Source: Sacculina carcini
Lineage: Eukaryota; Arthropoda; Thecostraca; Sacculinidae
NCBI GenBank assembly: GCA_916048095.2
Contig: OU696574.1
Coordinates: 11,715,087 to 11,779,086 of the forward strand
Direction of reading: 5' to 3'
Length of the DNA stretch: 64,000 nt
In this document: piece after piece, positions 1 to 64,000 of the stretch
How the letters are laid out: each line of letters begins with the position of its first letter
Numbering within the stretch: the stretch's first letter is position 1
Made by a program: the position numbers and the translations under genes
Notes under the pieces: model-generated
Told to the model about the DNA's origin: nothing
The model's database searches: none
What the model saw: the letters and a program-made list of their open reading frames with translations, nothing else

Positions 1-2150
1 ACTTAGGGTACACTTAGGTAACACTTAGGGCACACTTAGGTAACACTTAGGGCACACTTAGGTTACACTTAGGGTACATTTAGGTAACACTTAGGGTACA
101 TTTAGGTAACACTTAGGGCACACTTAGGTAACACTTAGGTAACACTTAGGGCACACTTAGGTAACACTTAGGTAACACTTAGGTAACACTTAGGTAACAC
201 TTAGGTAACACTTAGGTAACACTTAGGGCACACTTAGGTAACACTTAGGTAACACTTAGGGCACACTTAGGTAACACTTAGGGCACACTTAGGTAACACT
301 TAGGTAACACGTAGGGCACACTTAGGTAACACTTAGGTAACACTTAGGTAACACTTAGGACACACTTAGGGAACACTTAGGACACACTTAGGTAACACTT
401 AGGTAACACTTAGGTAACACTTAGGTAACACTTAGGGCACACTTAGGTAACACTTAGGGCACACTTAGGTAACACTTAGGGCACACTTAGGTAACACTTA
501 AGGCACACTTAGGTAACACTTAGGGCACACTTAGGTAACACTTAGGGCACACTTAGGTAACACTTAGGGCACACTTAGGTAACACTTAGGGCACACTTAG
601 GTAACACTTAGGGCACACTTAGGTAACACTTAGGGCACACTTAGGTAACACTTAGGGCACACTTAGGACACACTTAGGGAACACTTAGGACACACTTAGG
701 TAACACTTAGGTAACACTTAGGTAACACTTAGGTAACACTTAGGTAACACTTAGGTAACACTTAGGGTACACTTAGGTAACACTTAGGGCACACTTAGGT
801 AACACTTAGGGCACACTTAGGTTACACTTAGGGTACATTTAGGTAACACTTAGGGTACATTTAGGTAACACTTAGGGCACACTTAGGTAACACTTAGGTA
901 ACACTTAGGGCACACTTAGGTAACACTTAGGTAACACTTAGGTAACACTTAGGTAACACTTAGGTAACACTTAGGTAACACTTAGGGCACACTTAGGTAA
1001 CACTTAGGTAACACTTAGGGCACACTTAGGTAACACTTAGGGCACACTTAGGTAACACTTAGGTAACACGTAGGGCACACTTAGGTAACACTTAGGTAAC
1101 ACTTAGGTAACACTTAGGACACACTTAGGGAACACTTAGGACACACTTAGGTAACACTTAGGTAACACTTAGGTAACACTTATGGCACACTTAGGTAACA
1201 CTTAGGGCACACTTAGGTAACACTTAGGTAACACTTAGGTAACACTTAGGTAACACTTAGGTAACACTTAGGGCACACTTAGGTAACACTTAGGGCACAC
1301 TTAGGTAACACTTAGGGCACACTTAGGTAACACTTAGGGCACACTTACGTAACACTTAGGGCACACTTAGGTAACACTTAGGGCACACTTAGGTAACAGT
1401 TAGGGCACACTTGGGTAACACTTGGGTAACACTTGGGTAACACTTAGGTAACACTTAGGTAACACTTAGGTAACACTTAGGTAACACTTAGGTAACACTT
1501 AGGTAACACTTAGGTAACACTTAGGTAACACTTAGGGCACACTTAGGTAACACTTAGGGCACACTTAGGTTACACTTAGGGTACATTTAGGTAACACATA
1601 GGGTACATTTAGGTAACACTTAGGGCACACTTAGGTAACACTTAGGTAACACTTAGGTAACACTTAGGTAACACTTAGGGCACACTTAGGTAACACTTAG
1701 GGCACACTTAGGTAACACTTAGGGCACACTTAGGTAACACTTAGGGCACACTTAGGTAACACTTAGAGCACACTTAGGTAACACTTAAGGCACACTTAGG
1801 TAACACTTAGGGCACACTTAGGTAACACTTAGGGCACACTTAGGTAACACTTAGGGCACACTTAGGTAACACTTAGGGAACACTTAGGACACACTTAGGT
1901 AACACTTAGGTAACACTTAGGTAACACTTAGGTAACACTTAGGTAACACTTAGGGTACACTTAGGGTACACTTAGGTAACACTTAGGGCACACTTAGGTA
2001 ACACTTAGGGCACACTTAGGTTACACTTAGGGTACATTTAGGTAACACTTAGGGTACATTTAGGTAACACTTAGGGCACACTTAGGTAACACTTAGGTAA
2101 CACTTAGGGCACACTTAGGTAACACTTAGGTAACACTTAGGTAACACTTA
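1..2150 (+). repeat. HOR block with two 759-bp modules (copy I)
   Basis: Two successive modules both begin with the order T A C A C W T L T L C A A C. Their T monomers start at -1 (cut by the window edge) and 758, which is 759 bp or 69 monomers apart. Each then has a run of A, a K (CpG at 310 and 1,069) and a D-E-D triplet. The first module continues with a Q and a long A-C dimer run; the second goes on to V, H (1,348), P (1,396), three G, W-T-L-B, R, Q and a T-T doublet near 1,961. The block matches 4,731-6,880 at a constant offset of 4,730 bp, checked at K, Q, V, H, B, R and T-T. One clear difference is the P at 1,396, which is an ordinary C at 6,126. Confidence 0.9.
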
Positions 2151-2960
2151 GGTAACACTTAGGTAACACTTAGGTAACACTTAGGTAACACTTAGGTAAC
2201 ACTTAGGTAACACTTAGGTAACACTTAGGTAACACTTAGGTAACACTTAGGTAACACTTAGGTAACACTTAGGTAACACTTAGGTAACATTTAGGTAACA
2301 TTTAGGTAACACTTATGTAACACTTAGGGCACATTTAGGTTACACTTAGGGCACACTTAGGTAACACTTAGGGTACATTTAGGTAACACTTAGGGTACAT
2401 TTAGGTAACACTTAGGGCACACTTAGGTAACACTTAGGTAACACTTAGGGCACACTTAGGTAACACTTAGGTAACACTTAGGTAACACTTAGGTAACACT
2501 TAGGTAACACTTAGGTAACACTTAGGTAACACTTAGGTAACACTTAGGTAACACTTAGGTAACACTTAGGTAACACTTAGGTAACACTTAGGTAACACTT
2601 AGGGCACACTTAGGTAACACTTAGGGCACACTTAGGTAACACTTAGGGCACACTTAGGTTACACTTAGGGTACATTTAGGTAACACTTAGGGTACATTTA
2701 GGTAACACTTAGGGCACACTTAGGTAACACTTAGGTAACACTTAGGGCACACTTAGGTAACACTTAGGTAACACTTAGGTAACACTTAGGTAACACTTAG
2801 GTAACACTTAGGTAACACTTAGGTAACACTTAGGTAACACTTAGGTAACACTTAGGTAACACTTAGGTAACATTTAGGTAACATTTAGGTAACACTTATG
2901 TAACACTTAGGGCACATTTAGGTTACACTTAGGGCACACTTAGGTAACACTTAGGGTACA
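2019..2960 (+). repeat. Duplicated W-T-L ... L-L-Y module with 16-A run
   Basis: Two neighbouring modules each run W T L T L C A A C, then a run of A, then L L Y C M C A T L. Their W monomers are 638 bp apart and their Y monomers 583 bp apart. The 55-bp discrepancy is five A monomers: the first copy has 16 consecutive A units (2,111-2,286), the longest pure A run I noted, and the second has 11 (2,749-2,869). A third stretch of 13 A units (2,452-2,594) lies between them. Length change therefore sits in the pure A runs and comes in whole monomers. Confidence 0.85.
2111..2286 (+). repeat. Longest pure A run (16 monomers)
   Basis: Sixteen identical ACACTTAGGTA units with no substitution. The homologous runs at 2,749 and before 6,950 are shorter by several whole monomers, so this run is a site of copy-number change in single 11-bp steps. 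Other long A runs lie at 2,452-2,594 (13 units) and 50,621-50,763 (13 units). Confidence 0.9.
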
Positions 2961-3660
2961 TTTAGGTAACACTTAGGGCACACTTAGGTAACACTTAGGG
3001 TACACGTAGGGCACACTTAGGTAACACTTAGGTAACACTTAGGTAACACTTAGGACACACTTAGGGAACACTTAGGACACACTTAGGTAACACTTAGGTA
3101 ACACTTAGGTAACACTTAGGTAACACTTAGGGCACACTTAGGTAACACTTAGGGCACACTTGGGTAACACTTATGGCACACTTAGGACACACTTAGGGAA
3201 CACTTTGGACACACTTAGGTAACACTTAGGTAACACTTAGGTAACACTTAGGTAACACTTAGGTAACACTTAGGGCACACTTAGGTAACACTTAGGTAAC
3301 ACTTAGGGCACACTTAGGTAACACTTAGGGCACACTTAGGTAACACTTAGGTAACACGTAGGGCACACTTAGGTAACACTTAGGTAACACTTAGGTAACA
3401 CTTAGGACACACTTAGGGAACACTTAGGACACACTTAGGTAACACTTAGGTAACACTTAGGTAACACTTAGGTAACACTTAGGGCACACTTAGGTAACAC
3501 TTAGGGCACACTTGGGTAACACTTATGGCACACTTAGGTAACACTTAGGGCACACTTAGGTAACACTTAGGTAACACTTAGGTAACACTTAGGTAACACT
3601 TAGGTAACACTTAGGGCACACTTAGGTAACACTTAGGGCACACTTAGGTAACACTTAGGG
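2960..3660 (+). repeat. 352-bp tandem pair (32 monomers)
   Basis: K (CpG at 3,005 and 3,357), the following A A A D E D, and the G-V doublet (TATGG at 3,172 and 3,524) all repeat at an offset of 352 bp. The first K is unusual in following a T rather than an A. Between the copies, a second D-E-D-like triplet near 3,180-3,215 carries a private substitution, ACTTTGG in place of ACTTAGG at about 3,203. The pair looks like a local tandem duplication followed by divergence. Confidence 0.85.
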
Positions 3661-7700: not shown

Positions 7701-8039
7701 ACTTAGGTAACACTTAGGGCACACTTAGGTAACACTTAGGGCACACTTAGGTAACACTTAGGGCACACTTAGGTAACACTTAAGGCACACTTAGGTAACA
7801 CTTAGGGCACACTTAGGTAACACTTAGGGCACACTTAGGTAACACTTAGGGCACACTTAGGTAACACTTAGGGCACACTTAGGTAACACTTAGGGCACAC
7901 TTAGGTAACACTTAGGGCACACTTAGGTAACACTTAGGGCACACTTAGGACACACTTAGGGAACACTTAGGACACACTTAGGTAACACTTAGGTAACACT
8001 TAGGTAACACTTAGGTAACACTTAGGTAACACTTAGGTA
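4729..8039 (+). repeat. 3,311-bp HOR, first copy
   Basis: Begins at the T monomer at 4,729 and contains the 759-bp double module (T at 4,729 and 5,488; K at 5,040 and 5,799), then V, H (6,078), three G without the usual P, W-T-L-B, R, Q, T-T near 6,691, L-L-Y near 6,977, N at 7,105, F near 7,149, a third K (7,295) and the T-L-C-A series at 7,320-7,430. The next copy starts at 8,040, 301 monomers later. Its first 2,150 bp are the 4,730-bp-offset relative of the window start. It has six fewer A monomers than that relative just before L-L-Y. Confidence 0.9.
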
Positions 8040-15079: not shown

Positions 15080-17935
15080 ACACTTAGGGTACACTTAGGT
15101 AACACTTAGGGCACACTTAGGTAACACTTAGGGCACACTTAGGTTACACTTAGGGTACATTTAGGTAACACTTAGGGTACATTTAGGTAACACTTAGGGC
15201 ACACTTAGGTAACACTTAGGTAACACTTAGGGCACACTTAGGTAACACTTAGATAACACTTAGGTAACACTTAGGTAACACTTAGGTAACACTTAGGTAA
15301 CACTTAGGGCACACTTAGGTAACACTTAGGTAACACTTAGGGCACACTTAGGTAACACTTAGGGCACACTTAGGTAACACTTAGGTAACACGTAGGGCAC
15401 ACTTAGGTAACACTTAGGTAACACTTAGGTAACACTTAGGACACACTTAGGGAGCACTTAGGACACACTTAGGTAACACTTAGGTAACACTTAGGTAACA
15501 CTTAGGTAACACTTAGGGCACACTTAGGTAACACTTAGGGCACACTTGGGTAACACTTATGGCACACTTAGGTAACACTTAGGGCACACTTAGGTAACAC
15601 TTAGGTAACACTTAGGTAACACTTAGGTAACACTTAGGTAACACTTAGGGCACACTTAGGTAACACTTAGGGCACACTTAGGTAACACTTAGGGCACACT
15701 TAGGTAACACTTAGGGCACACTTACGTAACACTTAGGGCACACTTAGGTAACACTTAGGGCACACTTAGGTAACAGTTAGGGCACACTTGGGTAACACTT
15801 GGGTAACACTTGGGTAACACTTAGGTAACACTTAGGTAACACTTAGGTAACACTTAGGTAACACTTAGGTAACACTTAGGTAACACTTAGGTAACACTTA
15901 GGTAACACTTAGGTAACACTTAGGGCACACTTAGGTAACACTTAGGGCACACTTGGGTAACACTTATGGCACACTTAGGTAACACTTAGGGCACACTTAG
16001 GTAACACTTAGGTAACACTTAGGTAACACTTAGGTAACACTTAGGTAACACTTAGGGCACACTTAGGTAACACTTAGGGCACACTTAGGTAACACTTAGG
16101 GCACACTTAGGTAACACTTAGGGCACACTTACGTAACACTTAGGGCACACTTAGGTAACACTTAGGGCACACTTAGGTAACAGTTAGGGCACACTTGGGT
16201 AACACTTGGGTAACACTTGGGTAACACTTAGGTAACACTTAGGGCACACTTAGGTAACACTTAGGGCACACTTAGGTTACACTTAGGGTACATTTAGGTA
16301 ACACTTAGGTAACACTTAGGGTACACTTAGGTAACACTTAGGGCACACTTAGGTAACACTTAGGGCACACTTAGGTTACACTCAGGGTACATTTAGGTAA
16401 CACTTAGGGTACATTTAGGTAACACTTAGGGCACACTTAGGTAACACTTAGGTAACACTTAGGGCACACTTAGGTAACACTTAGGTAACACTTAGGTAAC
16501 ACTTAGGTAACACTTAGGTAACACTTAGGTAACACTTAGGTAACACTTAGGTAACACTTAGGTAACACTTAGGTAACACTTAGGTAACATTTAGGTAACA
16601 TTTAGGTAACACTTATGTAACACTTAGGGCACATTTAGGTTACACTTAGGGCACACTTAGGTAACACTTAGGGTACACTTAGGTAACACTTAGGGTACAC
16701 TTAGGTAACACTTAGGGCACACTTAGGTTACACTTAGGGCACAATTAGGTTACACTTAGGGCACACTTAGGTAACACTTAGGGTTCATTTAGGTAACACT
16801 TAGGGCACACTTAGGTAACACTTAGGTAACACTTAGGTAACACTTAGGTAACACTTAGGTAACACTTAGGTAACACTTAGGGCACACTTAGGTAACACTT
16901 AGGGCACACTTAGGTAACACTTAGGTAACACGTAGGGCACACTTAGGTAACACTTAGGGTACATTTAGGTAACACTTAGGGCACACTTAGGTAACACTTA
17001 GGGTACATTTAGGTAACACTTAGGGCACACTTAGGTAACACTTAGGGTACATTTAGGTAACACTTAGGGCACACTTAGGTAACACTTAGGTAACACTTAG
17101 GTAACACTTAGGTAACACTTAGGTAACACTTAGGTAACACTTAGGTAACACTTAGGACACACTTAGGGAACACTTAGGACACACTTAGGTAACACTTAGG
17201 TAACACTTAGGTAACACTTAGGTAACACTTAGGGCACACTTAGGTAACACTTAGGGCACACTTGGGTAACACTTATGGCACACTTAGGTAACACTTAGGG
17301 CACACTTAGGTAACACTTAGGTAACACTTAGGTAACACTTAGGTAACACTTAGGTAACACTTAGGGCACACTTAGGTAACACTTAGGGCACACTTAGGTA
17401 ACACTTAGGGCACACTTAGGTAACACTTAGGGCACACTTACGTAACACTTAGGTAACACTTAGGTAACACTTAGGTAACACTTAGGTAACACTTAGGTAA
17501 CACTTAGGGCACACTTAGGTAATACTTAGGGCACACTTAGGTTACACTTAGGGTACATTTAGGTAACACATAGGGAACATTTAGGTAACACTTAGGGCAC
17601 ACTTAGGTAACACTTAGGTAACACTTAGGTAACACTTAGGGCACACTTAGGTAACACTTAGGGCACACTTAGGTAACACTTAGGGCACACTTAGGTAACA
17701 CTTAGGGCACACTTAGGTAACACTTAGGGCACACTTAGGTAACACTTAAGGCACACTTAGGTAACACTTAGGGCACACTTAGGTAACACTTAGGGCACAC
17801 TTAGGTAACACTTAGGGCACACTTAGGTAACACTTAGGGCACACTTAGGTAACACTTAGGGCACACTTAGGTAACACTTAGGGCACACTTAGGTAACACT
17901 TAGGGCACACTTAGGTAACACTTAGGGCACACTTA
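15080..17935 (+). repeat. Mosaic block: T module, G-V-H-P doublet, N-F-K module
   Basis: Starts with a T module (T at 15,080, K at 15,391) that matches the one at 8,040 with a 7,040-bp offset. The D-E-D triplet here has its third unit changed to S (GCACTTAGGAC) near 15,453, the first S in the window. Two successive G-V ... H ... P-G-G-G segments follow (H at 15,725 and 16,132; P at 15,773 and 16,180). Then come a short W-T-L, a second T module fragment with a private ACACTCAGGGT at 16,379, L-L-Y, N at 16,741, F, K at 16,931 and the T-L-C-A series. From about 17,160 the order switches abruptly to D-E-D, G-V, H (17,441), B' and A-C dimers with a Q. Confidence 0.85.
17750..17932 (+). repeat. Long A-C dimer run (22-bp repeat)
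   Basis: About eight alternating A and C monomers in a row after a Q unit, a typical example of the 22-bp second-order repeat found throughout the window. The left end of the 6,094-bp duplication falls inside this run, which suggests that dimer runs are where misaligned recombination or template switching joined blocks. In such runs TTAGGG occurs every 22 bp and TTAGGT alternates with it. Confidence 0.85.
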
Positions 17936-20900
17936 GGACACACTTAGGGAACACTTAGGACACACTTAGGTAACACTTAGGTAACACTTAGGTAACACTT
18001 AGGTAACACTTAGGTAACACTTAGGTAACACTTAGGGTACACTTAGGTAACACTTAGGGCACACTTAGGTAACACTTAGGTAACACTTAGGGCACACTTA
18101 GGGTACATTTAGGTAACACTTAGGGTACATTTAGGTAACACTTAGGGCACACTTAGGTAACACTTAGGTAACACTTAGGGCACACTTAGGTAACACTTAG
18201 GTAACACTTAGGTAACACTTAGGTAACACTTAGGTAACACTTAGGTAACACTTAGGGCACACTTAGGTAACACTTAGGTAACACTTAGGGCACACTTAGG
18301 TAACACTTAGGGCACACTTAGGTAACACTTAGGTAACACGTAGGGCACACTTAGGTAACACTTAGGTAACACTTAGGTAACACTTAGGACACACTTAGGG
18401 AACACTTAGGACACACTTAGGTAACACTTAGGTAACACTTAGGTAACACTTAGGTAACACTTAGGGCACACTTAGGTAACACTTAGGGCACACTTAGGTA
18501 ACACTTAGGGCACACTTAGGTAACACTTAAGGCACACTTAGGTAACACTTAGGGCACACTTAGGTAACACTTAGGGCACACTTAGGTAACACTTAGGGCA
18601 CACTTAGGTAACACTTAGGGCACACTTAGGTAACACTTAGGGCACACTTAGGTAACACTTAGGGCACACTTAGGTAACACTTAGGGCACACTTAGGACAC
18701 ACTTAGGGAACACTTAGGACACACTTAGGTAACACTTAGGTAACACTTAGGTAACACTTAGGTAACACTTAGGTAACACTTAGGTAACACTTAGGGTACA
18801 CTTAGGTAACACTTAGGGCACACTTAGGTAACACTTAGGGCACACTTAGGTTACACTTAGGGTACATTTAGGTAACACTTAGGGTACATTTAGGTAACAC
18901 TTAGGGCACACTTAGGTAACACTTAGGTAACACTTAGGGCACACTTAGGTAACACTTAGGTAACACTTAGGTAACACTTAGGTAACACTTAGGTAACACT
19001 TAGGTAACACTTAGGGCACACTTAGGTAACACTTAGGTAACACTTAGGGCACACTTAGGTAACACTTAGGGCACACTTAGGTAACACTTAGGTAACACGT
19101 AGGGCACACTTAGGTAACACTTAGGTAACACTTAGGTAACACTTAGGACACACTTAGGGAACACTTAGGACACACTTAGGTAACACTTAGGTAACACTTA
19201 GGTAACACTTAGGTAACACTTAGGGCACACTTAGGTAACACTTAGGGCACACTTGGGTAACACTTATGGCACACTTAGGTAACACTTAGGGCACACTTAG
19301 GTAACACTTAGGTAACACTTAGGTAACACTTAGGTAACACTTAGGTAACACTTAGGGCACACTTAGGTAACACTTAGGGCACACTTAGGTAACACTTAGG
19401 GCACACTTAGGTAACACTTAGGGCACACTTACGTAACACTTAGGGCACACTTAGGTAACACTTAGGGCACACTTAGGTAACAGTTAGGGCACACTTGGGT
19501 AACACTTGGGTAACACTTGGGTAACACTTAGGTAACACTTAGGTAACACTTAGGTAACACTTAGGTAACACTTAGGTAACACTTAGGTAACACTTAGGTA
19601 ACACTTAGGTAACACTTAGGGCACACTTAGGTAACACTTAGGGCACACTTAGGTTACACTTAGGGTACATTTAGGTAACACATAGGGTACATTTAGGTAA
19701 CACTTAGGGCACACTTAGGTAACACTTAGGTAACACTTAGGTAACACTTAGGTAACACTTAGGGCACACTTAGGAAACACTTAGGGCACACTTAGGTAAC
19801 ACTTAGGGCACACTTAGGTAACACTTAGGGCACACTTAGGTAACACTTAGAGCACACTTAGGTAACACTTAAGGCACACTTAGGTAACACTTAGGGCACA
19901 CTTAGGTAACACTTAGGGCACACTTAGGTAACACTTAGGTAACACTTAGGGTACACTTAGGGTACACTTAGGTAACACTTAGGGCACACTTAGGTAACAC
20001 TTAGGGCACACTTAGGTTACACTTAGGGTACATTTAGGTAACACTTAGGGTACATTTAGGTAACACTTAGGGCACACTTAGGTAACACTTAGGTAACACT
20101 TAGGGCACACTTAGGTAACACTTAGGTAACACTTAGGTAACACTTAGGTAACACTTAGGTAACACTTAGGTAACACTTAGGTAACACTTAGGTAACACTT
20201 AGGTAACACTTAGGTAACATTTAGGTAACATTTAGGTAACACTTATGTAACACTTAGGGCACATTTAGGTAACACTTAGGGCACACTTAGGTAACACTTA
20301 GGGTACACTTAGGTAACACTTAGGGTACACTTAGGTAACACTTAGGGCACACTTAGGTTACACTTAGGGCACAATTAGATTACACTTAGGGCACACTTAG
20401 GTAACACTTAGGGTTCATTTAGGTAACACTTAGGGCACACTTAGGTAACACTTAGGTAACACTTAGGTAACACTTAGGTAACACTTAGGTAACACTTAGG
20501 TAACACTTAGGGCACACTTAGGTAACACTTAGGGCACACTTAGGTAACACTTAGGTAACACGTAGGGCACACTTAGGTAACACTTAGGGTACATTTAGGT
20601 AACACTTAGGGCACACTTAGGTAACACTTAGGGTACATTTAGGTAACACTTAGGGCACACTTAGGTAACACTTAGGGTACATTTAGGTAACACTTAGGGC
20701 ACACTTAGGTAACACTTAGGTAACACTTAGGTAACACTTAGGTAACACTTAGGTAACACTTAGGGCACACTTAGGTAATACTTAGGTAACACTTAGGGCA
20801 CACTTAGGTAACACTTAGGGCACACTTAGGTAACACTTAAGGCACACTTAGGTAACACTTAGGGCACACTTAGGTAACACTTAGGGCACACTTAGGTAAC

Positions 20901-22845
20901 ACTTAGGGCACACTTAGGTAACACTTAGGGCACACTTAGGTAACACTTAGGGCACACTTAGGTAACAGTTAGGGCACACTTGGGTAACACTTAGGTAACA
21001 CTTAGGTAACACTTAGGTAACACTTAGGTAACACTTAGGTAACACTTAGGTAACACTTAGGTAACACTTAGGTAACACTTAGGTAACACTTAGGTAACAC
21101 TTAGGGCACATTTAGGTAACACTTAGGGCACACTTAGGTAACACTTAGGGTACATTTAGGTAACACATAGGGTACATTTAGGTAACACTTAGGGCACACT
21201 TAGGTAACACTTAGGTAACACTTAGGTAACACTTAGGTAACACTTAGGGCACACTTAGGTAACACTTAGGGCACACTTAGGTAACAGTTAGGGCACACTT
21301 GGGTAACACTTGGGTAACACTTGGGTAACACTTAGGTAACACTTAGGTAACACTTAGGTAACACTTAGGTAACACTTAGGTAACACTTAGGTAACACTTA
21401 GGTAACACTTAGGTAACACTTAGGGCACACTTAGGTAACACTTAGGGCACACTTAGGTTACACTTAGGGTACATTTAGGTAACACATAGGGTACATTTAG
21501 GTAACACTTAGGGCACACTTAGGTAACACTTAGGTAACACTTAGGTAACACTTAGGTAACACTTAGGGCACACTTAGGTAACACTTAGGGCACACTTAGG
21601 TAACACTTAGGGCACACTTAGGTAACACTTAGGGCACACTTAGGTAACACTTAGGGCACACTTAGGTAACACTTAGGGCACACTTAGGTAACACTTAGGG
21701 CACACTTAGGACACACTTAGGGAACACTTAGGACACACTTAGGTAACACTTAGGTAACACTTAGGTAACACTTAGGTAACACTTAGGGCACACTTAGGTA
21801 ACACTTAGGGCACACTTGGGTAACACTTATGGCACACTTAGGTAACACTTAGGGCACACTTAGGTAACACTTAGGTAACACTTAGGTAACACTTAGGTAA
21901 CACTTAGGTAACACTTAGGGCACACTTAGGTAACACTTAGGGCACACTTAGGTAACACTTAGGGCACACTTAGGTAACACTTAGGGCACACTTAGGTAAC
22001 ACTTAGGGCACACTTAGGTAACACTTAGGGCACACTTAGGTAACAGTTAGGGCACACTTGGGTAACACTTGGGTAACACTTGGGTAACACTTAGGTAACA
22101 CTTAGGTAACACTTAGGTAACACTTAGGTAACACTTAGGTAACACTTAGGTAACACTTAGGTAACACTTAGGTAACACTTAGGGCACACTTAGGTAACAC
22201 TTAGGGCACACTTAGGTTACACTTAGGGTACATTTAGGTAACACATAGGGTACATTTAGGTAACACTTAGGGCACACTTAGGTAACACTTAGGTAACACT
22301 TAGGTAACACTTAGGGCACACTTAGGTAACACTTAGGGCACACTTAGGTAACACTTAGGGCACACTTAGGTAACACTTAGGGCACACTTAGGTAACACTT
22401 AGGGCACACTTAGGTAACACTTAGGGCACACTTAGGTAACACTTAGGGCACACTTAGGACACACTTAGGGAACACTTAGGACACACTTAGGTAACACTTA
22501 GGTAACACTTAGGTAACACTTAGGTAACACTTAGGTAACACTTAGGGCACACTTAGGTAACACTTAGGTAACACTTAGGGCACACTTAGGTAACACTTAG
22601 GGCACACTTAGGTAACACTTAGGTAACACGTAGGGCACACTTAGGTAACACTTAGGTAACACTTAGGTAACACTTAGGACACACTTAGGGAACACTTAGG
22701 ACACACTTAGGTAACACTTAGGTAACACTTAGGTAACACTTAGGTAACACTTAGGGCACACTTAGGTAACACTTAGGGCACACTTGGGTAACACTTATGG
22801 CACACTTAGGTAACACTTAGGGCACACTTAGGTAACACTTAGGTA
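17936..22845 (+). repeat. 6,094-bp-offset duplication, copy 1
   Basis: This segment and 24,030-28,950 are copies of one block. Offsets at D-E-D, T, K, H, N, P and L markers are exactly 6,094 bp (554 monomers) up to about 22,260, and then 6,105 bp after one extra A in the second copy. Shared private variants support direct copying: an A-A-C-T-L order without W near 18,090, AGGAAAC near 19,772, N changed to ACAATTAGATT at 20,371, and L in place of M near 20,260. Contents in order: T modules (18,028 and 18,787), K, Q, D-E-D, G-V-H-P (19,480), R, T-T, L-L-Y, N, F, K, T-L-C-A series, then P clusters at 20,965, 21,284 and 22,043. The P at 20,965 is followed by only one G. Confidence 0.92.
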
Positions 22846-24035
22846 ACACTTAGGTAACACTTAGGACACACTTAGGTAACACTTAGGTAACACTTAGGTA
22901 ACACTTAGGTAACACTTAGGTAACACTTAGGGCACACTTAGGTAACACTTAGGGCACACTTAGGTAACACTTAGGGCACACTTAGGTAACACTTAGGGCA
23001 CACTTAGGTAACACTTAGGGCACACTTAGGACACACTTAGGGAACACTTAGGACACACTTAGGTAACACTTAGGTAACACTTAGGTAACACTTAGGTAAC
23101 ACTTAGGTAACACTTAGGTAACACTTAGGTAACACTTAGGTAACACTTAGGTAACACTTAGGTAACACTTAGGGCACACTTAGGTAACACTTAGGGCACA
23201 CTTAGGTTACACTTAGGGTACATTTAGGTAACACATAGGGTACATTTAGGTAACACTTAGGGCACACTTAGGTAACACTTAGGTAACACTTAGGTAACAC
23301 TTAGGTAACACTTAGGGCACACTTAGGTAACACTTAGGGCACACTTAGGTAACACTTAGGGCACACTTAGGTAACACTTAGGGCACACTTAGGTAACACT
23401 TAGGGCACACTTAGGTAACACTTAGGGCACACTTAGGTAACACTTAGGGCACACTTAGGACACACTTAGGGAACACTTAGGACACACTTAGGTAACACTT
23501 AGGTAACACTTAGGTAACACTTAGGTAACACTTAGGTAACACTTAGGGCACACTTAGGTAACACTTAGGTAACACTTAGGGCACACTTAGGTAACACTTA
23601 GGGCACACTTAGGTAACACTTAGGTAACACGTAGGGCACACTTAGGTAACACTTAGGTAACACTTAGGTAACACTTAGGACACACTTAGGGAACACTTAG
23701 GACACACTTAGGTAACACTTAGGTAACACTTAGGTAACACTTAGGTAACACTTAGGGCACACTTAGGTAACACTTAGGGCACACTTGGGTAACACTTATG
23801 GCACACTTAGGTAACACTTAGGGCACACTTAGGTAACACTTAGGTAACACTTAGGTAACACTTAGGACACACTTAGGTAACACTTAGGTAACACTTAGGT
23901 AACACTTAGGTAACACTTAGGTAACACTTAGGGCACACTTAGGTAACACTTAGGGCACACTTAGGTAACACTTAGGGCACACTTAGGTAACACTTAGGGC
24001 ACACTTAGGTAACACTTAGGGCACACTTAGGACAC
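22205..24035 (+). repeat. 1,001-bp tandem pair (91 monomers)
   Basis: W-T-L-B, D-E-D, K (22,629 and 23,630), the G-V doublet (TATGG at 22,796 and 23,797) and a private A A A D A A A order (AGGACAC near 22,863 and 23,864) all repeat about 1,001 bp apart. The W monomers are 990 bp apart, so one monomer differs inside. The first copy overlaps the end of the 6,094-bp copy 1 and the second fills the gap before copy 2, so this duplication helped set the spacing of the larger pair. Confidence 0.88.
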
Positions 24036-27000
24036 ACTTAGGGAACACTTAGGACACACTTAGGTAACACTTAGGTAACACTTAGGTAACACTTAGGTAA
24101 CACTTAGGTAACACTTAGGTAACACTTAGGGTACACTTAGGTAACACTTAGGGCACACTTAGGTAACACTTAGGTAACACTTAGGGCACACTTAGGGTAC
24201 ATTTAGGTAACACTTAGGGTACATTTAGGTAACACTTAGGGCACACTTAGGTAACACTTAGGTAACACTTAGGGCACACTTAGGTAACACTTAGGTAACA
24301 CTTAGGTAACACTTAGGTAACACTTAGGTAACACTTAGGTAACACTTAGGGCACACTTAGGTAACACTTAGGTAACACTTAGGGCACACTTAGGTAACAC
24401 TTAGGGCACACTTAGGTAACACTTAGGTAACACGTAGGGCACACTTAGGTAACACTTAGGTAACACTTAGGTAACACTTAGGACACACTTAGGGAACACT
24501 TAGGACACACTTAGGTAACACTTAGGTAACACTTAGGTAACACTTAGGTAACACTTAGGGCACACTTAGGTAACACTTAGGGCACACTTAGGTAACACTT
24601 AGGGCACACTTAGGTAACACTTAAGGCACACTTAGGTAACACTTAGGGCACACTTAGGTAACACTTAGGGCACACTTAGGTAACACTTAGGGCACACTTA
24701 GGTAACACTTAGGGCACACTTAGGTAACACTTAGGGCACACTTAGGTAACACTTAGGGCACACTTAGGTAACACTTAGGGCACACTTAGGACACACTTAG
24801 GGAACACTTAGGACACACTTAGGTAACACTTAGGTAACACTTAGGTAACACTTAGGTAACACTTAGGTAACACTTAGGTAACACTTAGGGTACACTTAGG
24901 TAACACTTAGGGCACACTTAGGTAACACTTAGGGCACACTTAGGTTACACTTAGGGTACATTTAGGTAACACTTAGGGTACATTTAGGTAACACTTAGGG
25001 CACACTTAGGTAACACTTAGGTAACACTTAGGGCACACTTAGGTAACACTTAGGTAACACTTAGGTAACACTTAGGTAACACTTAGGTAACACTTAGGTA
25101 ACACTTAGGGCACACTTAGGTAACACTTAGGTAACACTTAGGGCACACTTAGGTAACACTTAGGGCACACTTAGGTAACACTTAGGTAACACGTAGGGCA
25201 CACTTAGGTAACACTTAGGTAACACTTAGGTAACACTTAGGACACACTTAGGGAACACTTAGGACACACTTAGGTAACACTTAGGTAACACTTAGGTAAC
25301 ACTTAGGTAACACTTAGGGCACACTTAGGTAACACTTAGGGCACACTTGGGTAACACTTATGGCACACTTAGGTAACACTTAGGGCACACTTAGGTAACA
25401 CTTAGGTAACACTTAGGTAACACTTAGGTAACACTTAGGTAACACTTAGGGCACACTTAGGTAACACTTAGGGCACACTTAGGTAACACTTAGGGCACAC
25501 TTAGGTAACACTTAGGGCACACTTACGTAACACTTAGGGCACACTTAGGTAACACTTAGGGCACACTTAGGTAACAGTTAGGGCACACTTGGGTAACACT
25601 TGGGTAACACTTGGGTAACACTTAGGTAACACTTAGGTAACACTTAGGTAACACTTAGGTAACACTTAGGTAACACTTAGGTAACACTTAGGTAACACTT
25701 AGGTAACACTTAGGGCACACTTAGGTAACACTTAGGGCACACTTAGGTTACACTTAGGGTACATTTAGGTAACACATAGGGTACATTTAGGTAACACTTA
25801 GGGCACACTTAGGTAACACTTAGGTAAATCTTAGGTAACACTTAGGTAACACTTAGGGCACACTTAGGAAACACTTAGGGCACACTTAGGTAACACTTAG
25901 GGCACACTTAGGTAACACTTAGGGCACACTTAGGTAACACTTAGAGCACACTTAGGTAACACTTAAGGCACACTTAGGTAACACTTAGGGCACACTTAGG
26001 TAACACTTAGGGCACACTTAGGTAACACTTAGGTAACACTTAGGGTACACTTAGGGTACACTTAGGTAACACTTAGGGCACACTTAGGTAACACTTAGGG
26101 CACACTTAGGTTACACTTAGGGTACATTTAGGTAACACTTAGGGTACATTTAGGTAACACTTAGGGCACACTTAGGTAACACTTAGGTAACACTTAGGGC
26201 ACACTTAGGTAACACTTAGGTAACACTTAGGTAACACTTAGGTAACACTTAGGTAACACTTAGGTAACACTTAGGTAACACTTAGGTAACACTTAGGTAA
26301 CACTTAGGTAACATTTAGGTAACATTTAGGTAACACTTAGGTAACACTTAGGGCACATTTAGGTAACACTTAGGGCACACTTAGGTAACACTTAGGGTAC
26401 ACTTAGGTAACACTTAGGGTACACTTAGGTAACACTTAGGGCACACTTAGGTTACACTTAGGGCACAATTAGATTACACTTAGGGCACACTTAGGTAACA
26501 CTTAGGGTTCATTTAGGTAACACTTAGGGCACACTTAGGTAACACTTAGGTAACACTTAGGTAACACTTAGGTAACACTTAGGTAACACTTAGGTAACAC
26601 TTAGGGCACACTTAGGTAACACTTAGGGCACACTTAGGTAACACTTAGGTAACACGTAGGGCACACTTAGGTAACACTTAGGGTACATTTAGGTAACACT
26701 TAGGGCACACTTAGGTAACACTTAGGGTACATTTAGGTAACACTTAGGGCACACTTAGGTAACACTTAGGGTACATTTAGGTAACACTTAGGGCACACTT
26801 AGGTAACACTTAGGTAACACTTAGGTAACACTTAGGTAACACTTAGGTAACACTTAGGGCACACTTAGGTAATACTTAGGTAACACTTAGGGCACACTTA
26901 GGTAACACTTAGGGCACACTTAGGTAACACTTAAGGCACACTTAGGTAACACTTAGGGCACACTTAGGTAACACTTAGGGCACACTTAGGTAACACTTAG

Positions 27001-28950
27001 GGCACACTTAGGTAACACTTAGGGCACACTTAGGTAACACTTAGGGCACACTTAGGTAACAGTTAGGGCACACTTGGGTAACACTTGGGTAACACTTGGG
27101 TAACACTTAGGTAACACTTAGGTAACACTTAGGTAACACTTAGGTAACACTTAGGTAACACTTAGGTAACACTTAGGTAACACTTAGGTAACACTTAGGG
27201 CACATTTAGGTAACACTTAGGGCACACTTAGGTTACACTTAGGGTACATTTAGGTAACACATAGGGTACATTTAGGTAACACTTAGGGCACACTTAGGTA
27301 ACACTTAGGTAACACTTAGGTAACACTTAGGTAACACTTAGGGCACACTTAGGTAACACTTAGGGCACACTTAGGTAACAGTTAGGGCACACTTGGGTAA
27401 CACTTGGGTAACACTTGGGTAACACTTAGGTAACACTTAGGTAACACTTAGGTAACACTTAGGTAACACTTAGGTAACACTTAGGTAACACTTAGGTAAC
27501 ACTTAGGTAACACTTAGGGCACACTTAGGTAACACTTAGGGCACACTTAGGTTACACTTAGGGTACATTTAGGTAACACATAGGGTACATTTAGGTAACA
27601 CTTAGGGCACACTTAGGTAACACTTAGGTAACACTTAGGTAACACTTAGGTAACACTTAGGGCACACTTAGGTAACACTTAGGGCACACTTAGGTAACAC
27701 TTAGGGCACACTTAGGTAACACTTAGGGCACACTTAGGTAACACTTAGGGCACACTTAGGTAACACTTAGGGCACACTTAGGTAACACTTAGGGCACACT
27801 TAGGACACACTTAGGGAACACTTAGGACACACTTAGGTAACACTTAGGTAACACTTAGGTAACACTTAGGTAACACTTAGGGCACACTTAGGTAACACTT
27901 AGGGCACACTTGGGTAACACTTATGGCACACTTAGGTAACACTTAGGGCACACTTAGGTAACACTTAGGTAACACTTAGGTAACACTTAGGTAACACTTA
28001 GGTAACACTTAGGGCACACTTAGGTAACACTTAGGGCACACTTAGGTAACACTTAGGGCACACTTAGGTAACACTTAGGGCACACTTAGGTAACACTTAG
28101 GGCACACTTAGGTAACACTTAGGGCACACTTAGGTAACAGTTAGGGCACACTTGGGTAACACTTGGGTAACACTTGGGTAACACTTAGGTAACACTTAGG
28201 TAACACTTAGGTAACACTTAGGTAACACTTAGGTAACACTTAGGTAACACTTAGGTAACACTTAGGTAACACTTAGGGCACACTTAGGTAACACTTAGGG
28301 CACACTTAGGTTACACTTAGGGTACATTTAGGTAACACATAGGGTACATTTAGGTAACACTTAGGGCACACTTAGGTAACACTTAGGTAACACTTAGGTA
28401 ACACTTAGGTAACACTTAGGGCACACTTAGGTAACACTTAGGGCACACTTAGGTAACACTTAGGGCACACTTAGGTAACACTTAGGGCACACTTAGGTAA
28501 CACTTAGGGCACACTTAGGTAACACTTAGGGCACACTTAGGTAACACTTAGGGCACACTTAGGACACACTTAGGGAACACTTAGGACACACTTAGGTAAC
28601 ACTTAGGTAACACTTAGGTAACACTTAGGTAACACTTAGGTAACACTTAGGGCACACTTAGGTAACACTTAGGTAACACTTAGGGCACACTTAGGTAACA
28701 CTTAGGGCACACTTAGGTAACACTTAGGTAACACGTAGGGCACACTTAGGTAACACTTAGGTAACACTTAGGTAACACTTAGGACACACTTAGGGAACAC
28801 TTAGGACACACTTAGGTAACACTTAGGTAACACTTAGGTAACACTTAGGTAACACTTAGGGCACACTTAGGTAACACTTAGGGCACACTTGGGTAACACT
28901 TATGGCACACTTAGGTAACACTTAGGGCACACTTAGGTAACACTTAGGTA
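24030..28950 (+). repeat. 6,094-bp-offset duplication, copy 2
   Basis: Copy of 17,936-22,845. K at 24,433, 25,192 and 26,655, H at 25,526, N at 26,465, and P at 25,574, 27,059, 27,378 and 28,137 are each 6,094 bp from their partners. Differences that arose after copying include AATCTTAGGTA at 25,827 (two substitutions), loss of the Y substitution near 26,333 and one extra A near 28,390. The left edge falls inside an A-C dimer run and the right edge just after the G-V at 28,901. Both edges are what out-of-step recombination between dimers would leave. Confidence 0.92.
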
Positions 28951-34755: not shown

Positions 34756-34759
34756 GGCA

Positions 34760-36585: not shown

Positions 36586-36706
36586 CACTTAGGTAACACT
36601 TAGGGCACACTTAGGTAACACTTAGGTAACACTTAGGGCACACTTAGGTAACACTTAGGTAACACTTAGGTAACACTTAGGTAACACTTAGGTAACACTT
36701 AGGTAA

Positions 36707-47400: not shown

Positions 47401-49660
47401 CTTAGGTAACACTTAGGGCACACTTAGGTAACACTTAGGGCACACTTAGGTAACACTTAGGGCACACTTAGGTAACACTTAGGGCACACTTAGGTAACAG
47501 TTAGGGCACACTTGGGTAACACTTGGGTAACACTTGGGTAACACTTAGGTAACACTTAGGTAACACTTAGGTAACACTTAGGTAACACTTAGGTAACACT
47601 TAGGTAACACTTAGGTAACACTTAGGTAACACTTAGGGCACACTTAGGTAACACTTAGGTAACACTTAGGTAACACTTAGGTAACACTTAGGTAACACTT
47701 AGGGCACACTTAGGTAACACTTAGGGCACACTTAGGTAACACTTAGGGCACACTTAGGTAACACTTAGGGCACACTTAGGTAACACTTAGGGCACACTTA
47801 GGTAACACTTAGGGCACACTTAGGTAACAGTTAGGGCACACTTGGGTAACACTTGGGTAACACTTGGGTAACACTTAGGTAACACTTAGGTAACACTTAG
47901 GTAACACTTAGGTAACACTTAGGTAACACTTAGGTAACACTTAGGTAACACTTAGGTAACACTTAGGGCACACTTAGGTAACACTTAGGGCACACTTAGG
48001 TTACACTTAGGGCACACTTAGGTAACACTTAGGGCACACTTAGGTAACACTTAGGGCACACTTAGGTAACACTTAGGGCACACTTAGGTAACACTTAGGG
48101 CACACTTAGGTAACACTTAGGGCACACTTAGGTAACAGTTAGGGCACACTTGGGTAACACTTGGGTAACACTTGGGTAACACTTAGGTAACACTTAGGTA
48201 ACACTTAGGTAACACTTAGGTAACACTTAGGTAACACTTAGGTAACACTTAGGTAACACTTAGGTAACACTTAGGTAACACTTAGGTAACACTTAGGGCA
48301 CACTTAGGTAACACTTAGGGCACACTTAGGTTACACTTAGGGTACATTTAGGTAACACATAGGGAACATTTAGGTAACACTTAGGGCACACTTAGGTAAC
48401 ACTTAGGTAACACTTAGGTAACACTTAGGTAACACTTAGGTAACACTTAGGGCACACTTAGGTAACACTTAGGGCACACTTAGGTAACACTTAGGGCACA
48501 CTTAGGTAACACTTAGGGCACACTTAGGTAACACTTAGGGCACACTTAGGTAACACTTAAGGCACACTTAGGTAACACTTAGGGCACACTTAGGTAACAC
48601 TTAGGGCACACTTAGGTAACACTTAGGGCACACTTAGGTAACACTTAGGGCACACTTAGGTAACACTTAGGGCACACTTAGGTAACACTTAGGGCACACT
48701 TAGGTAACACTTAGGGCACACTTAGGACACACTTAGGGAACACTTAGGACACACTTAGGTAACACTTAGGTAACACTTAGGTAACACTTAGGTAACACTT
48801 AGGTAACACTTAGGTAACACTTAGGGTACACTTAGGTAACACTTAGGGCACACTTAGGTAACACTTAGGGCACACTTAGGTTACACTTAGGGTACATTTA
48901 GGTAACACTTAGGGTACATTTAGGTAACACTTAGGGCACACTTAGGTAACACTTAGGTAACACTTAGGGCACACTTAGGTAACACTTAGGTAACACTTAG
49001 GTAACACTTAGGTAACACTTAGGTAACACTTAGGTAACACTTAGGGCACACTTAGGTAACACTTAGGTAACACTTAGGGCACACTTAGGTAACACTTAGG
49101 GCACACTTAGGTAACACTTAGGTAACACGTAGGGCACACTTAGGTAACACTTAGGTAACACTTAGGTAACACTTAGGACACACTTAGGGAGCACTTAGGA
49201 CACACTTAGGTAACACTTAGGTAACACTTAGGTAACACTTAGGTAACACTTAGGGCACACTTAGGTAACACTTAGGGCACACTTGGGTAACACTTATGGC
49301 ACACTTAGGTAACACTTAGGGCACACTTAGGTAACACTTAGGTAACACTTAGGTAACACTTAGGTAACACTTAGGTAACACTTAGGGCACACTTAGGTAA
49401 CACTTAGGGCACACTTAGGTAACACTTAGGGCACACTTAGGTAACACTTAGGGCACACTTACGTAACACTTAGGGCACACTTAGGTAACACTTAGGGCAC
49501 ACTTAGGTAACAGTTAGGGCACACTTGGGTAACACTTGGGTAACACTTGGGTAACACTTAGGTAACACTTAGGTAACACTTAGGTAACACTTAGGTAACA
49601 CTTAGGTAACACTTAGGTAACACTTAGGTAACACTTAGGTAACACTTAGGTAACACTTAG
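44450..49660 (+). repeat. Pair of blocks about 2.85 kb apart
   Basis: P at 44,978 and 45,286 match 47,827 and 48,135 (offset 2,849), as do the B' monomers near 45,511 and 48,360. T at 45,957 and 48,817, K at 46,268 and 49,128 and the following S units are 2,860 bp apart, so the second copy has one more monomer inside. Each block runs P G G G, A run, C A C W C ..., P G G G, W T L B', A-C dimers with Q, D E D, T module, K and D E S. The segment 46,430-47,830 between them is a relative of 37.9-39.2 kb (P at 46,661, 47,497 and 47,827, offset 8,624). Confidence 0.87.
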
Positions 49661-50763
49661 GTAACACTTAGGGCACACTTAGGTAACACTTAGGGCACAC
49701 TTGGGTAACACTTATGGCACACTTAGGTAACACTTAGGGCACACTTAGGTAACACTTAGGTAACACTTAGGTAACACTTAGGTAACACTTAGGTAACACT
49801 TAGGGCACACTTAGGTAACACTTAGGGCACACTTAGGTAACACTTAGGGCACACTTACGTAACACTTAGGGCACACTTAGGTAACACTTAGGGCACACTT
49901 AGGTAACAGTTAGGGCACACTTGGGTAACACTTGGGTAACACTTGGGTAACACTTAGGTAACACTTAGGTAACACTTAGGTAACACTTAGGTAACACTTA
50001 GGTAACACTTAGGTAACACTTAGGTAACACTTAGGTAACACTTAGGTAACACTTAGGTAACACTTAGGTAACACTTAGGGCACACTTAGGTAACACTTAG
50101 GTAACACTTAGGTAACACTTAGGTAACACTTAGGTAACACTTAGGGCACACTTAGGTAACACTTAGGGCACACTTAGGTAACACTTAGGGCACACTTAGG
50201 TAACACTTAGGGCACACTTAGGTAACACTTAGGGCACACTTAGGTAACACTTAGGGCACACTTAGGTAACAGTTAGGGCACACTTGGGTAACACTTGGGT
50301 AACACTTGGGTAACACTTAGGTAACACTTAGGTAACACTTAGGTAACACTTAGGTAACACTTAGGTAACACTTAGGTAACACTTAGGTAACACTTAGGTA
50401 ACACTTAGGGCACACTTAGGTAACACTTAGGGCACACTTAGGTTACACTTAGGGCACACTTAGGTAACACTTAGGGCACACTTAGGTAACACTTAGGGCA
50501 CACTTAGGTAACACTTAGGGCACACTTAGGTAACACTTAGGGCACACTTAGGTAACACTTAGGGCACACTTAGGTAACAGTTAGGGCACACTTGGGTAAC
50601 ACTTGGGTAACACTTGGGTAACACTTAGGTAACACTTAGGTAACACTTAGGTAACACTTAGGTAACACTTAGGTAACACTTAGGTAACACTTAGGTAACA
50701 CTTAGGTAACACTTAGGTAACACTTAGGTAACACTTAGGTAACACTTAGGTAACACTTAGGTA
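49660..50763 (+). repeat. 1,100-bp tandem pair, copy 1
   Basis: Order: C A C G V, A run, A-C dimers with H (CpG at 49,858), P G G G (49,906), A run, C, A run, A-C dimers, P G G G (50,269), A run, C A C W C, A-C dimers, P G G G (50,577) and a 13-unit A run. Every marker recurs 1,100 bp (100 monomers) later, and the lines compared are identical. The copies are directly adjacent. I saw no difference over the shared length, so this is one of the youngest duplications in the window. Confidence 0.93.
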
Positions 50764-55640: not shown

Positions 55641-57330
55641 TTAGGGCACACTTAGGTAACACTTAGGGCACACTTAGGTAACACTTAGGGAACACTTAGG
55701 ACACACTTAGGTAACACTTAGGTAACACTTAGGTAACACTTAGGTAACACTTAGGTAACACTTAGGTAACACTTAGGGTACACTTAGGGTACACTTAGGT
55801 AACACTTAGGGCACACTTAGGTAACACTTAGGGCACACTTAGGTTACACTTAGGGTACATTTAGGTAACACTTAGGGTACATTTAGGTAACACTTAGGGC
55901 ACACTTAGGTAACACTTAGGTAACACTTAGGGCACACTTAGGTAACACTTAGGTAACACTTAGGTAACACTTAGGTAACACTTAGGTAACACTTAGGTAA
56001 CACTTAGGTAACACTTAGGTAACATTTAGGTAACATTTAGGTAACACTTATGTAACACTTAGGGCACATTTAGGTTACACTTAGGGCACACTTAGGTAAC
56101 ACTTAGGGTACACTTAGGTAACACTTAGGTAACACTTAGGTAACACGTAGGGCACACTTAGGTAACACTTAGGGTACATTTAGGTAACACTTAGGGCACA
56201 CTTAGGTAACACTTAGGGTACATTTAGGTAACACTTAGGGCACACTTAGGTAACACTTAGGGTACATTTAGGTAACACTTAGGGCACACTTAGGTAACAC
56301 TTAGGGCACACTTAGGTAACACTTAGGTAACACGTAGGGCACACTTAGGTAACACTTAGGGTACATTTAGGTAACACTTAGGGCACACTTAGGTAACACT
56401 TAGGGCACACTTAGGTAACACTTAGGGCACACTTAGGTTACACTTAGGGCACACTTAGGTAACACTTAGGGCACACTTAGGTAACACTTAGGGCACACTT
56501 AGGTAACACTTAGGGCACACTTAGGTAACACTTAGGGCACACTTAGGTAACACTTAGGGCACACTTAGGTAACAGTTAGGGCACACTTGGGTAACACTTG
56601 GGTAACACTTGGGTAACACTTAGGTAACACTTAGGTAACACTTAGGTAACACTTAGGTAACACTTAGGTAACACTTAGGTAACACTTAGGTAACACTTAG
56701 GTAACACTTAGGTAACACTTAGGGCACACTTAGGTAACACTTAGGGCACACTTAGGTTACACTTAGGGTACATTTAGGTAACACATAGGGAACATTTAGG
56801 TAACACTTAGGGCACACTTAGGTAACACTTAGGTAACACTTAGGTAACACTTAGGTAACACTTAGGTAACACTTAGGGCACACTTAGGTAACACTTAGGG
56901 CACACTTAGGTAACACTTAGGGCACACTTAGGTAACACTTAGGGCACACTTAGGTAACACTTAGGGCACACTTAGGTAACACTTAAGGCACACTTAGGTA
57001 ACACTTAGGGCACACTTAGGTAACACTTAGGGCACACTTAGGTAACACTTAGGGCACACTTAGGTAACACTTAGGGCACACTTAGGTAACACTTAGGGCA
57101 CACTTAGGTAACACTTAGGGCACACTTAGGTAACACTTAGGGCACACTTAGGACACACTTAGGGAACACTTAGGACACACTTAGGTAACACTTAGGTAAC
57201 ACTTAGGTAACACTTAGGTAACACTTAGGTAACACTTAGGTAACACTTAGGGTACACTTAGGTAACACTTAGGGCACACTTAGGTAACACTTAGGGCACA
57301 CTTAGGTTACACTTAGGGTACATTTAGGTA
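55640..57330 (+). repeat. 1,694-bp tandem pair, copy 2
   Basis: Copy of 53,990-55,640 with E-D at 55,688, T-T at 55,769, Y at 56,048, K at 56,146 and 56,333, P at 56,572 and T at 57,243. The junction is visible: near 55,630 the order W T L jumps to C A C A E D where other T modules continue T L C A A C. The break therefore lies in the short A-C stretch at about 55,640-55,680. Confidence 0.92.
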
Positions 57331-60300: not shown

Positions 60301-63300
60301 ACACTTAGGGCACACTTACGTAACACTTAGGGCACACTTAGGTAACACTTAGGGCACACTTAGGTAACAGTTAGGGCACACTTGGGTAACACTTGGGTAA
60401 CACTTGGGTAACACTTAGGTAACACTTAGGTAACACTTAGGTAACACTTAGGTAACACTTAGGTAACACTTAGGTAACACTTAGGTAACACTTAGGTAAC
60501 ACTTAGGTAACACTTAGGTAACACTTAGGGCACACTTAGGTAACACTTAGGGCACACTTGGGTAACACTTATGGCACACTTAGGTAACACTTAGGGCACA
60601 CTTAGGTAACACTTAGGTAACACTTAGGTAACACTTAGGTAACACTTAGGTAACACTTAGGTAACACTTAGGGCACACTTAGGTAACACTTAGGGCACAC
60701 TTAGGTAACACTTAGGGCACACTTACGTAACACTTAGGGCACACTTAGGTAACACTTAGGGCACACTTAGGTAACAGTTAGGGCACACTTGGGTAACACT
60801 TGGGTAACACTTGGGTAACACTTAGGTAACACTTAGGTAACACTTAGGTAACACTTAGGTAACACTTAGGTAACACTTAGGTAACACTTAGGTAACACTT
60901 AGGTAACACTTAGGGCACACTTAGGTAACACTTAGGGCACACTTAGGTTACACTTAGGGTACATTTAGGTAACACATAGGGTACATTTAGGTAACACTTA
61001 GGGCACACTTAGGTAACACTTAGGTAACACTTAGGTAACACTTAGGGCACACTTAGGTAACACTTAGGGCACACTTAGGTAACACTTAGGGCACACTTAG
61101 GTAACACTTAGGGCACACTTAGGTAACACTTAAGGCACACTTAGGTAACACTTAGGGCACACTTAGGTAACACTTAGGGCACACTTAGGTAACACTTAGG
61201 GCACACTTAGGTAACACTTAGGGAACACTTAGGACACACTTAGGTAACACTTAGGTAACACTTAGGTAACACTTAGGTAACACTTAGGTAACACTTAGGT
61301 AACACTTAGGGTACACTTAGGGTACACTTAGGTAACACTTAGGGCACACTTAGGTAACACTTAGGGCACACTTAGGTTACACTTAGGGTACATTTAGGTA
61401 ACACTTAGAGTACATTTAGGTAACACTTAGGGCACACTTAGGTAACACTTAGGTAACACTTAGGGCACACTTAGGTAACACTTAGGGCACACTTAGGTAA
61501 CACTTAGGGCACACTTAGGACACACTTAGGGAACACTTAGGACACACTTAGGTAACACTTAGGTAACACTTAGGTAACACTTAGGTAACACTTAGGTAAC
61601 ACTTAGGTAACACTTAGGGTACACTTAGGTAACACTTAGGGCACACTTAGGTAACACTTAGGGCACACTTAGGTTACACTTAGGGTACATTTAGGTAACA
61701 CTTAGGGTACATTTAGGTAACACTTAGGGCACACTTAGGTAACACTTAGGTAACACTTAGGGCACACTTAGGTAACACTTAGGTAACACTTAGGTAACAC
61801 TTAGGTAACACTTAGGTAACACTTAGGTAACACTTAGGGCACACTTAGGTAACACTTAGGTAACACTTAGGGCACACTTAGGTAACACTTAGGGCACACT
61901 TAGGTAACACTTAGGTAACACGTAGGACACACTTAGGTAACACTTAGGTAACACTTAGGTAACACTTAGGTAACACTTAGGTAACACTTAGGGCACACTT
62001 AGGTAACACTTAGGGCACACTTAGGTTACACTTAGGGTACATTTAGGTAACACATAGGGTACATTTAGGTAACACTTAGGGCACACTTAGGTAACACTTA
62101 GGTAACACTTAGGTAACACTTAGGGCACACTTAGGTAACACTTAGGGCACACTTAGGTAACACTTAGGGCACACTTAGGTAACACTTAGGGCACACTTAG
62201 GTAACACTTAAGGCACACTTAGGTAACACTTAGGGCACACTTAGGTAACACTTAGGTAACACTTAGGTAACACTTAGGGCACACTTAGGTAACACTTAGG
62301 TAACACTTAGGGCACACTTAGGTAACACTTAGGGCACACTTAGGTAACACTTAGGTAACACGTAGGGCACACTTAGGTAACACTTAGGTAACACTTAGGT
62401 AACACTTAGGACACACTTAGGGAGCACTTAGGACACACTTAGGTAACACTTAGGTAACACTTAGGTAACACTTAGGTAACACTTAGGGCACACTTAGGTA
62501 ACACTTAGGGCACACTTGGGTAACACTTATGGCACACTTAGGTAACACTTAGGGCACACTTAGGTAACACTTAGGTAACACTTAGGTAACACTTAGGTAA
62601 CACTTAGGTAACACTTAGGGCACACTTAGGTAACACTTAGGGCACACTTAGGTAACACTTAGGGCACACTTAGGTAACACTTAGGGCACACTTACGTAAC
62701 ACTTAGGGCACACTTAGGTAACACTTAGGGCACACTTAGGTAACAGTTAGGGCACACTTGGGTAACACTTGGGTAACACTTGGGTAACACTTAGGTAACA
62801 CTTAGGTAACACTTAGGTAACACTTAGGTAACACTTAGGTAACACTTAGGTAACACTTAGGTAACACTTAGGTAACACTTAGGTAACACTTAGGTAACAC
62901 TTAGGGCACACTTAGGTAACACTTAGGGCACACTTGGGTAACACTTATGGCACACTTAGGTAACACTTAGGGCACACTTAGGTAACACTTAGGTAACACT
63001 TAGGTAACACTTAGGTAACACTTAGGTAACACTTAGGTAACACTTAGGTAACACTTAGGTAACACTTAGGGCACACTTAGGTAACACTTAGGGCACACTT
63101 AGGTAACACTTAGGGCACACTTACGTAACACTTAGGGCACACTTAGGTAACACTTAGGGCACACTTAGGTAACAGTTAGGGCACACTTGGGTAACACTTG
63201 GGTAACACTTGGGTAACACTTAGGTAACACTTAGGTAACACTTAGGTAACACTTAGGTAACACTTAGGTAACACTTAGGTAACACTTAGGTAACACTTAG

Positions 63301-64000
63301 GTAACACTTAGGTAACACTTAGGTAACACTTAGGTAACACTTAGGGCACACTTAGGTAACACTTAGGTAACACTTAGGTAACACTTAGGTAACACTTAGG
63401 TAACACTTAGGGCACACTTAGGTAACACTTAGGGCACACTTAGGTAACACTTAGGGCACACTTAGGTAACACTTAGGGCACACTTAGGTAACACTTAGGG
63501 CACACTTAGGTAACACTTAGGGCACACTTAGGTAACAGTTAGGGCACACTTGGGTAACACTGGGGTAACACTTGGGTAACACTTAGGTAACACTTAGGTA
63601 ACACTTAGGTAACACTTAGGTAACACTTAGGTAACACTTAGGTAACACTTAGGTAACACTTAGGTAACACTTAGGGCACACTTAGGTAACACTTAGGGCA
63701 CACTTAGGTTACACTTAGGGCACACTTAGGTAACACTTAGGGCACACTTAGGTAACACTTAGGGCACACTTAGGTAACACTTAGGGCACACTTAGGTAAC
63801 ACTTAGGGCACACTTAGGTAACACTTAGGGCACACTTAGGTAACAGTTAGGGCACACTTGGGTAACACTTGGGTAACACTTGGGTAACACTTAGGTAACA
63901 CTTAGGTAACACTTAGGTAACACTTAGGTAACACTTAGGTAACACTTAGGTAACACTTAGGTAACACTTAGGTAACACTTAGGTAACACTTAGGGCACAC
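57243..64000 (+). repeat. About three 2.4-kb HOR units
   Basis: T-module markers repeat: K at 57,554, 59,985 and 62,361, V near 57,721, 60,152 and 62,528, and H at 57,888, 60,319 and 62,695; the offsets are 2,431 and 2,376 bp. All three K modules carry the S unit. Each continues through a second G-V ... H ... P segment (H at 58,284, 60,726 and 63,124). The first and third then carry P clusters spaced 363 and 308 bp; the second goes instead to W-T-L-B, T-T and a T module at 61,610 with a K altered to ACACGTAGGAC (61,921). The third unit has a private ACACTGGGGTA at 63,557 and runs off the window. Confidence 0.88.

Follow-up and report, generated by a model that had tools for sequence, protein, structure and literature searches.

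Introduction

Long arrays of short repeated units are known from several settings. A classical higher-order repeat is one fixed multimer repeated many times, and a repeat of the telomerase type usually has a unit of 5–8 bp. For satellites with short units, the unequal-exchange models outlined in PMC8122249 make arrays homogeneous if variants are fixed at a rate higher than the mutation rate. The array described here, which fills the whole 64-kb stretch of DNA that was analysed (the window), fits this condition as it is put there. It is a mosaic of large blocks that were copied from within the array, and it shows whole-monomer length changes and rare base substitutions. We consider it likely that the window lies inside a long, young satellite array, probably from a eukaryote, and that this is an ordinary satellite that was recently homogenised by in-register recombination.

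Array structure and register

The whole 64 kb is one array, in a single phase and a single orientation, with no other DNA inserted, as listed here.

1 to 64000, plus strand: tandem array of the 11-bp monomer, uninterrupted, with both ends outside the window

Divided into units of 11 bases starting at base 1, the window contains 5,818 complete monomers, with 2 bases left over. All 5,818 of the 5,818 are in phase and in one orientation, with 0 reverse-orientation monomers in the window, so the stretch has the long head-to-tail array of a short unit that characterises satellite DNA. Among these monomers there are 34 distinct 11-mer types. The modal monomer is ACTTAGGTAAC (3,087 of 5,818), followed by ACTTAGGGCAC (1,420 of 5,818), while nine types were seen once and four more were seen 2–4 times, all as base changes. 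Tandem Repeats Finder reported a single array at 1–63,994 with a period of 22, 93% matches and 0% indels. At lags of 11 and 22, self-match was 0.858 and 0.940, respectively, and among the lags of 1–399 not divisible by 11 it never exceeded 0.2815. When the monomer types are written out in order, alternation of the two common monomers is seen in many tracts, which reach 8 dimers at most. No base run in the window is longer than 4, and a run of 4 occurs once. One pair of rare monomers lies side by side.

25818 to 25839, plus strand: two neighbouring once-only monomer types, with changes at two adjoining bases

The changed bases, 25828–25829, lie on either side of the boundary between the two monomers, and both changes are unique in the window. 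They are perhaps the product of one multi-base mutation.

The register was examined with a phase profile built from the window itself, and with this profile the expected phase was the best one in 63,979 of 63,979 overlapping 22-bp stretches, by a margin of at least 57 nats. In control sequences, lone 1-bp insertions placed at random were detected in 200 of 200 cases, and an insertion with a deletion 5, 8, 11, 22 or 50 bp downstream produced a novel 11-mer in 200 of 200 cases at each spacing. Compensated pairs 1, 2 and 3 bp apart were detected in 161 of 192, 182 of 198 and 193 of 200 cases, respectively. Such close pairs within a monomer, which sometimes cannot be told from substitutions, are the only kind that the scan could partly miss. 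We also considered whether compensated indels within monomers had produced any of the types. Single-base steps join 34 of the 34 types in one network, and 33 substitutions suffice to make all of them; therefore, no off-register indel, in the form of an insertion plus a deletion, is needed. The earlier note had claimed an 11-bp register without a slip across the window, and this is confirmed by the full scan, with monomer boundaries in phase throughout and no compensated frameshift required. Its count of 5,817 monomers was one short.

Block copying within the array

The share of monomers that lie in an exact repeat is 98.5% for repeats of at least 20 monomers, 95.4% for at least 30, 83.2% for at least 50 and 59.2% for at least 100. 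The longest exact repeat has 230 monomers, compared to 15 in one shuffled order. The window was then described with a copying model, in which the costs were chosen by us, sources had to be at least 30 monomers away and jump costs of 8, 12 and 20 were used. At jump cost 12, the parse consisted of 39 blocks (38 jumps) of 143–4,455 bp. The longest exact repeat and the two largest blocks are given below.

48192 to 50721, plus strand: longest exact repeat, 230 monomers (2,530 bp); the second copy starts at 56618
17821 to 22275, plus strand: largest copied block, 4,455 bp; best copy at 23915–28369 (parse at jump cost 12)
23915 to 27995, plus strand: second-largest block, 4,081 bp; best copy at 17821–21901, the reciprocal of the block at 17821 to 22275

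The 39-block parse and the 98.5% of monomers in exact repeats of at least 20 monomers show the block copies and shared variants of concerted evolution. The parse at jump cost 12 contained 48 mismatching monomers, with 50 base changes, and 35 whole-monomer gaps. Among the 48 mismatches, 12 pairs were counted twice, once from each side, and account for 24; this leaves 36 distinct mismatching monomer pairs. With jump costs of 8, 12 and 20, there were 47, 38 and 32 jumps, 46, 50 and 58 base substitutions, and 19, 35 and 45 whole-monomer gaps, respectively. At jump cost 12, the divergence between the window and its best copies elsewhere is about 0.08% (50 of 63,998 bases). Gaps of a single monomer were the commonest class (24 of 35 at jump cost 12), and 23 of these 24 were judged by eye to lie in or adjoin a run of the modal monomer, which is where slippage is easiest. 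No gap of two monomers (22 bp) between best copies occurred among the 19, 35 and 45 gaps at jump costs 8, 12 and 20, respectively; in the alternating tracts, too, best copies never differ by such a gap.

Indels compared to substitutions

The window holds 0 off-register indels against 33 or more substitution origins. The 33 origin substitutions and the 36 distinct copy mismatches partly overlap, and from these two counts we estimate that the 5,818 monomers represent about 33–50 independent mutations. The monomers cannot be counted as separate trials when the independent mutations number only some tens, and the case for an indel shortage is far weaker than it would be with 5,818 independent monomers.

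The chance of seeing no indel was calculated as P(0) = (1/(1 + r))^K, where K is the number of substitutions and r is the indel:substitution ratio. Zero indels place a 95% upper limit on this ratio of 0.095 with K = 33 and 0.062 with K = 50. Ratios for eight eukaryotes, computed from Table 1 of PMC4978911, range from 0.057 in mouse to 0.46 in worm, with Drosophila at 0.089. The tabulated value for mouse is under both limits and that for Drosophila is under the K = 33 limit only. With the ratios from this table, P(0) at K = 33 is 0.16 for mouse, 0.06 for Drosophila, 0.027 for Chlamydomonas, 0.016 for human, 0.007 for Arabidopsis, 0.002 for Paramecium, 0.0001 for yeast and lower for worm. Thus, P(0) is below 0.05 under six of these eight published genome-wide ratios at K = 33 and under seven of the eight at K = 50. 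The ratios cited in PMC4369104 are about 0.03 for yeast, which is under both upper limits, 0.13 for Arabidopsis and 1.31 for C. elegans, and that paper gives 0.18 for its own worm strain. Judging from the values in these two sources, estimates for one species vary up to about tenfold between studies. In Dictyostelium, PMC7466956 reports indels to be twice as frequent as substitutions, outside simple repeats too. No published ratio for DNA free of base runs was found in our literature search; with no base run longer than 4 in the window, small indels should arise less often by mutation and indel errors in sequencing should be fewer.

Block copying was also simulated, with 60 runs per indel fraction and no further tuning. 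Zero indel types were left in 33%, 10% and 1.7% of runs at indel fractions of 0.05, 0.10 and 0.15, respectively, in simulations that averaged about 22 monomer types compared to 34 in the window. A modest indel shortage is possible but not established.

Distribution of variants within the monomer

To place the substitutions, we linked every type to the most abundant of the types one step away, apart from one that was linked manually so as to break a cycle. Counted by monomer position from 0 to 10, the 33 variant-origin substitutions number 1, 3, 4, 2, 2, 4, 4, 3, 4, 4 and 2. This distribution is even (chi-square 4.0, p = 0.95), which argues against any single base being strictly required and against a strict binding constraint. 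The abundance of the variants differs by monomer position (permutation p = 0.028, 20,000 shuffles), with those at positions 0, 3, 6, 9 and 10 never above 10 copies, and since types hitch-hike together in copied blocks this difference offers a weak lead but does not prove selection.

Discussion

Recent in-register homogenisation would account for most of what is seen. The copying would be homology-dependent, by unequal sister exchange, gene conversion or break-induced replication. Exchange of this kind would pair monomers in register, so that whole monomers could be added or removed without any ruler. With copying faster than mutation, only some tens of independent mutations would be on display, and with so few, one expects few or no off-register indels on view. 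The perfect spacing is then mostly as expected for a repeat that was copied recently in large blocks. Several results count against this explanation. Neutral copying does not predict the positional difference in variant abundance (p = 0.028), and the simulated runs with no indel type fell to 10% and 1.7% at indel fractions of 0.10 and 0.15. Also counting against it are the P(0) values below 0.05 for six of eight ratios at K = 33 and seven of eight at K = 50 (Table 1 of PMC4978911), the ratio of 1.31 cited for C. elegans (PMC4369104) and the high indel frequency reported for Dictyostelium (PMC7466956).

Another explanation is that the spacing has to be exactly 11 bp (or 22 bp) for a bound protein or a chromatin lattice and that off-register indels are removed by selection or by a recombination bias, which we regard as unlikely. 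We would likewise call it improbable that such indels are actively eliminated, through a protein lattice or because recombination refuses partners that are out of phase, with substitutions still arising at all monomer positions. The helical repeat of DNA is 10.5 bp, so monomers of 11 bp drift round the helix and do not match it. Odd whole-monomer changes are common, with 24 of 35 gaps being of one monomer, and thus a 22-bp spacing is not kept. The even spread of mutation origins over the 11 positions (p = 0.95) also speaks against such a constraint. Two results lean towards it: zero indels beside at least 33 substitution origins, with P below 0.05 for six of the eight ratios from Table 1 of PMC4978911 at K = 33, and the positional abundance (p = 0.028), with no more than 10 copies of any variant at positions 0, 3, 6, 9 and 10. 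The earlier note had proposed two alternatives, very fast homogenisation or a constraint that a protein or helical phasing places on the 11 bp. The first part stands, in the sense that copying outruns mutation, as supported by the repeat coverage of 95.4% and 59.2% and the divergence of about 0.08%. The second part is not needed and finds little support, given the even origins and the difference between 11 bp and 10.5 bp. Its statement that the array changes length only by whole monomers agrees with the copy parse.

It is quite unlikely that assembly or polishing smoothed real off-register indels or misbuilt some of the block copies. An assembly consensus can suppress minority variants, but the nine once-only types and the four seen 2–4 times survive, so rare differences were not all smoothed. 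In addition, the longest exact repeat of 2,530 bp is exceeded by usual long reads, and with no base run longer than 4, indel error should be low. Hairpins as the cause of the register were ruled out for the 110-base stretch at 221–330, which, folded as single-stranded DNA, did worse than its dinucleotide shuffles whichever strand was used (at least as good a fold was reached by 199 of 200 shuffles for one strand and by 200 of 200 for the other). Self-pairing of the repeat seems poor in this one folded stretch.

Recent homogenisation in register bears on how "perfect" satellites are judged, since thousands of in-phase monomers may stand for only some tens of independent mutations. The modest indel shortage, if upheld in older arrays of this monomer, would provide a direct test of selection on satellite spacing.

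Comparison with known systems

The open-licence literature was searched with 10-mers of the modal monomer, in all rotations and on both strands, and with six 11-mers. No satellite with this 11-bp monomer was named in the titles among the matches listed, which for the 10-mers include chance primer matches. There were 0 exact matches in viral contigs to the 22-bp pattern of two modal monomers, and prokaryote genome contigs gave 0 exact matches to a 22-bp pattern in which each monomer had two two-way ambiguous bases. On these exact-match scans, a viral or prokaryotic source was rejected.

Compared to the telomeric repeats TTAGG and TTAGGG, the array has TTAGG in its two commonest monomers, a resemblance that may be due to chance. 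Its periods of 11 and 22 differ from a telomerase-type unit, and the window contains no chromosome end, so it is not a telomeric repeat array. Primate alpha satellite forms higher-order repeats in which blocks of many monomers are likewise copied together. In contrast to the fixed multimer there, the array has an 11-bp monomer and irregular blocks of 143–4,455 bp at many different offsets and is, therefore, not a classical higher-order repeat. With short-unit satellites under unequal exchange, as in the Smith and Perelson–Bell models outlined in PMC8122249, the array shares tandem uniformity, whole-unit length changes, block copies and the small number of variants that results when copying outruns mutation. 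Its 11-bp unit is just outside the 5–10 bp class in the abstract of that paper.
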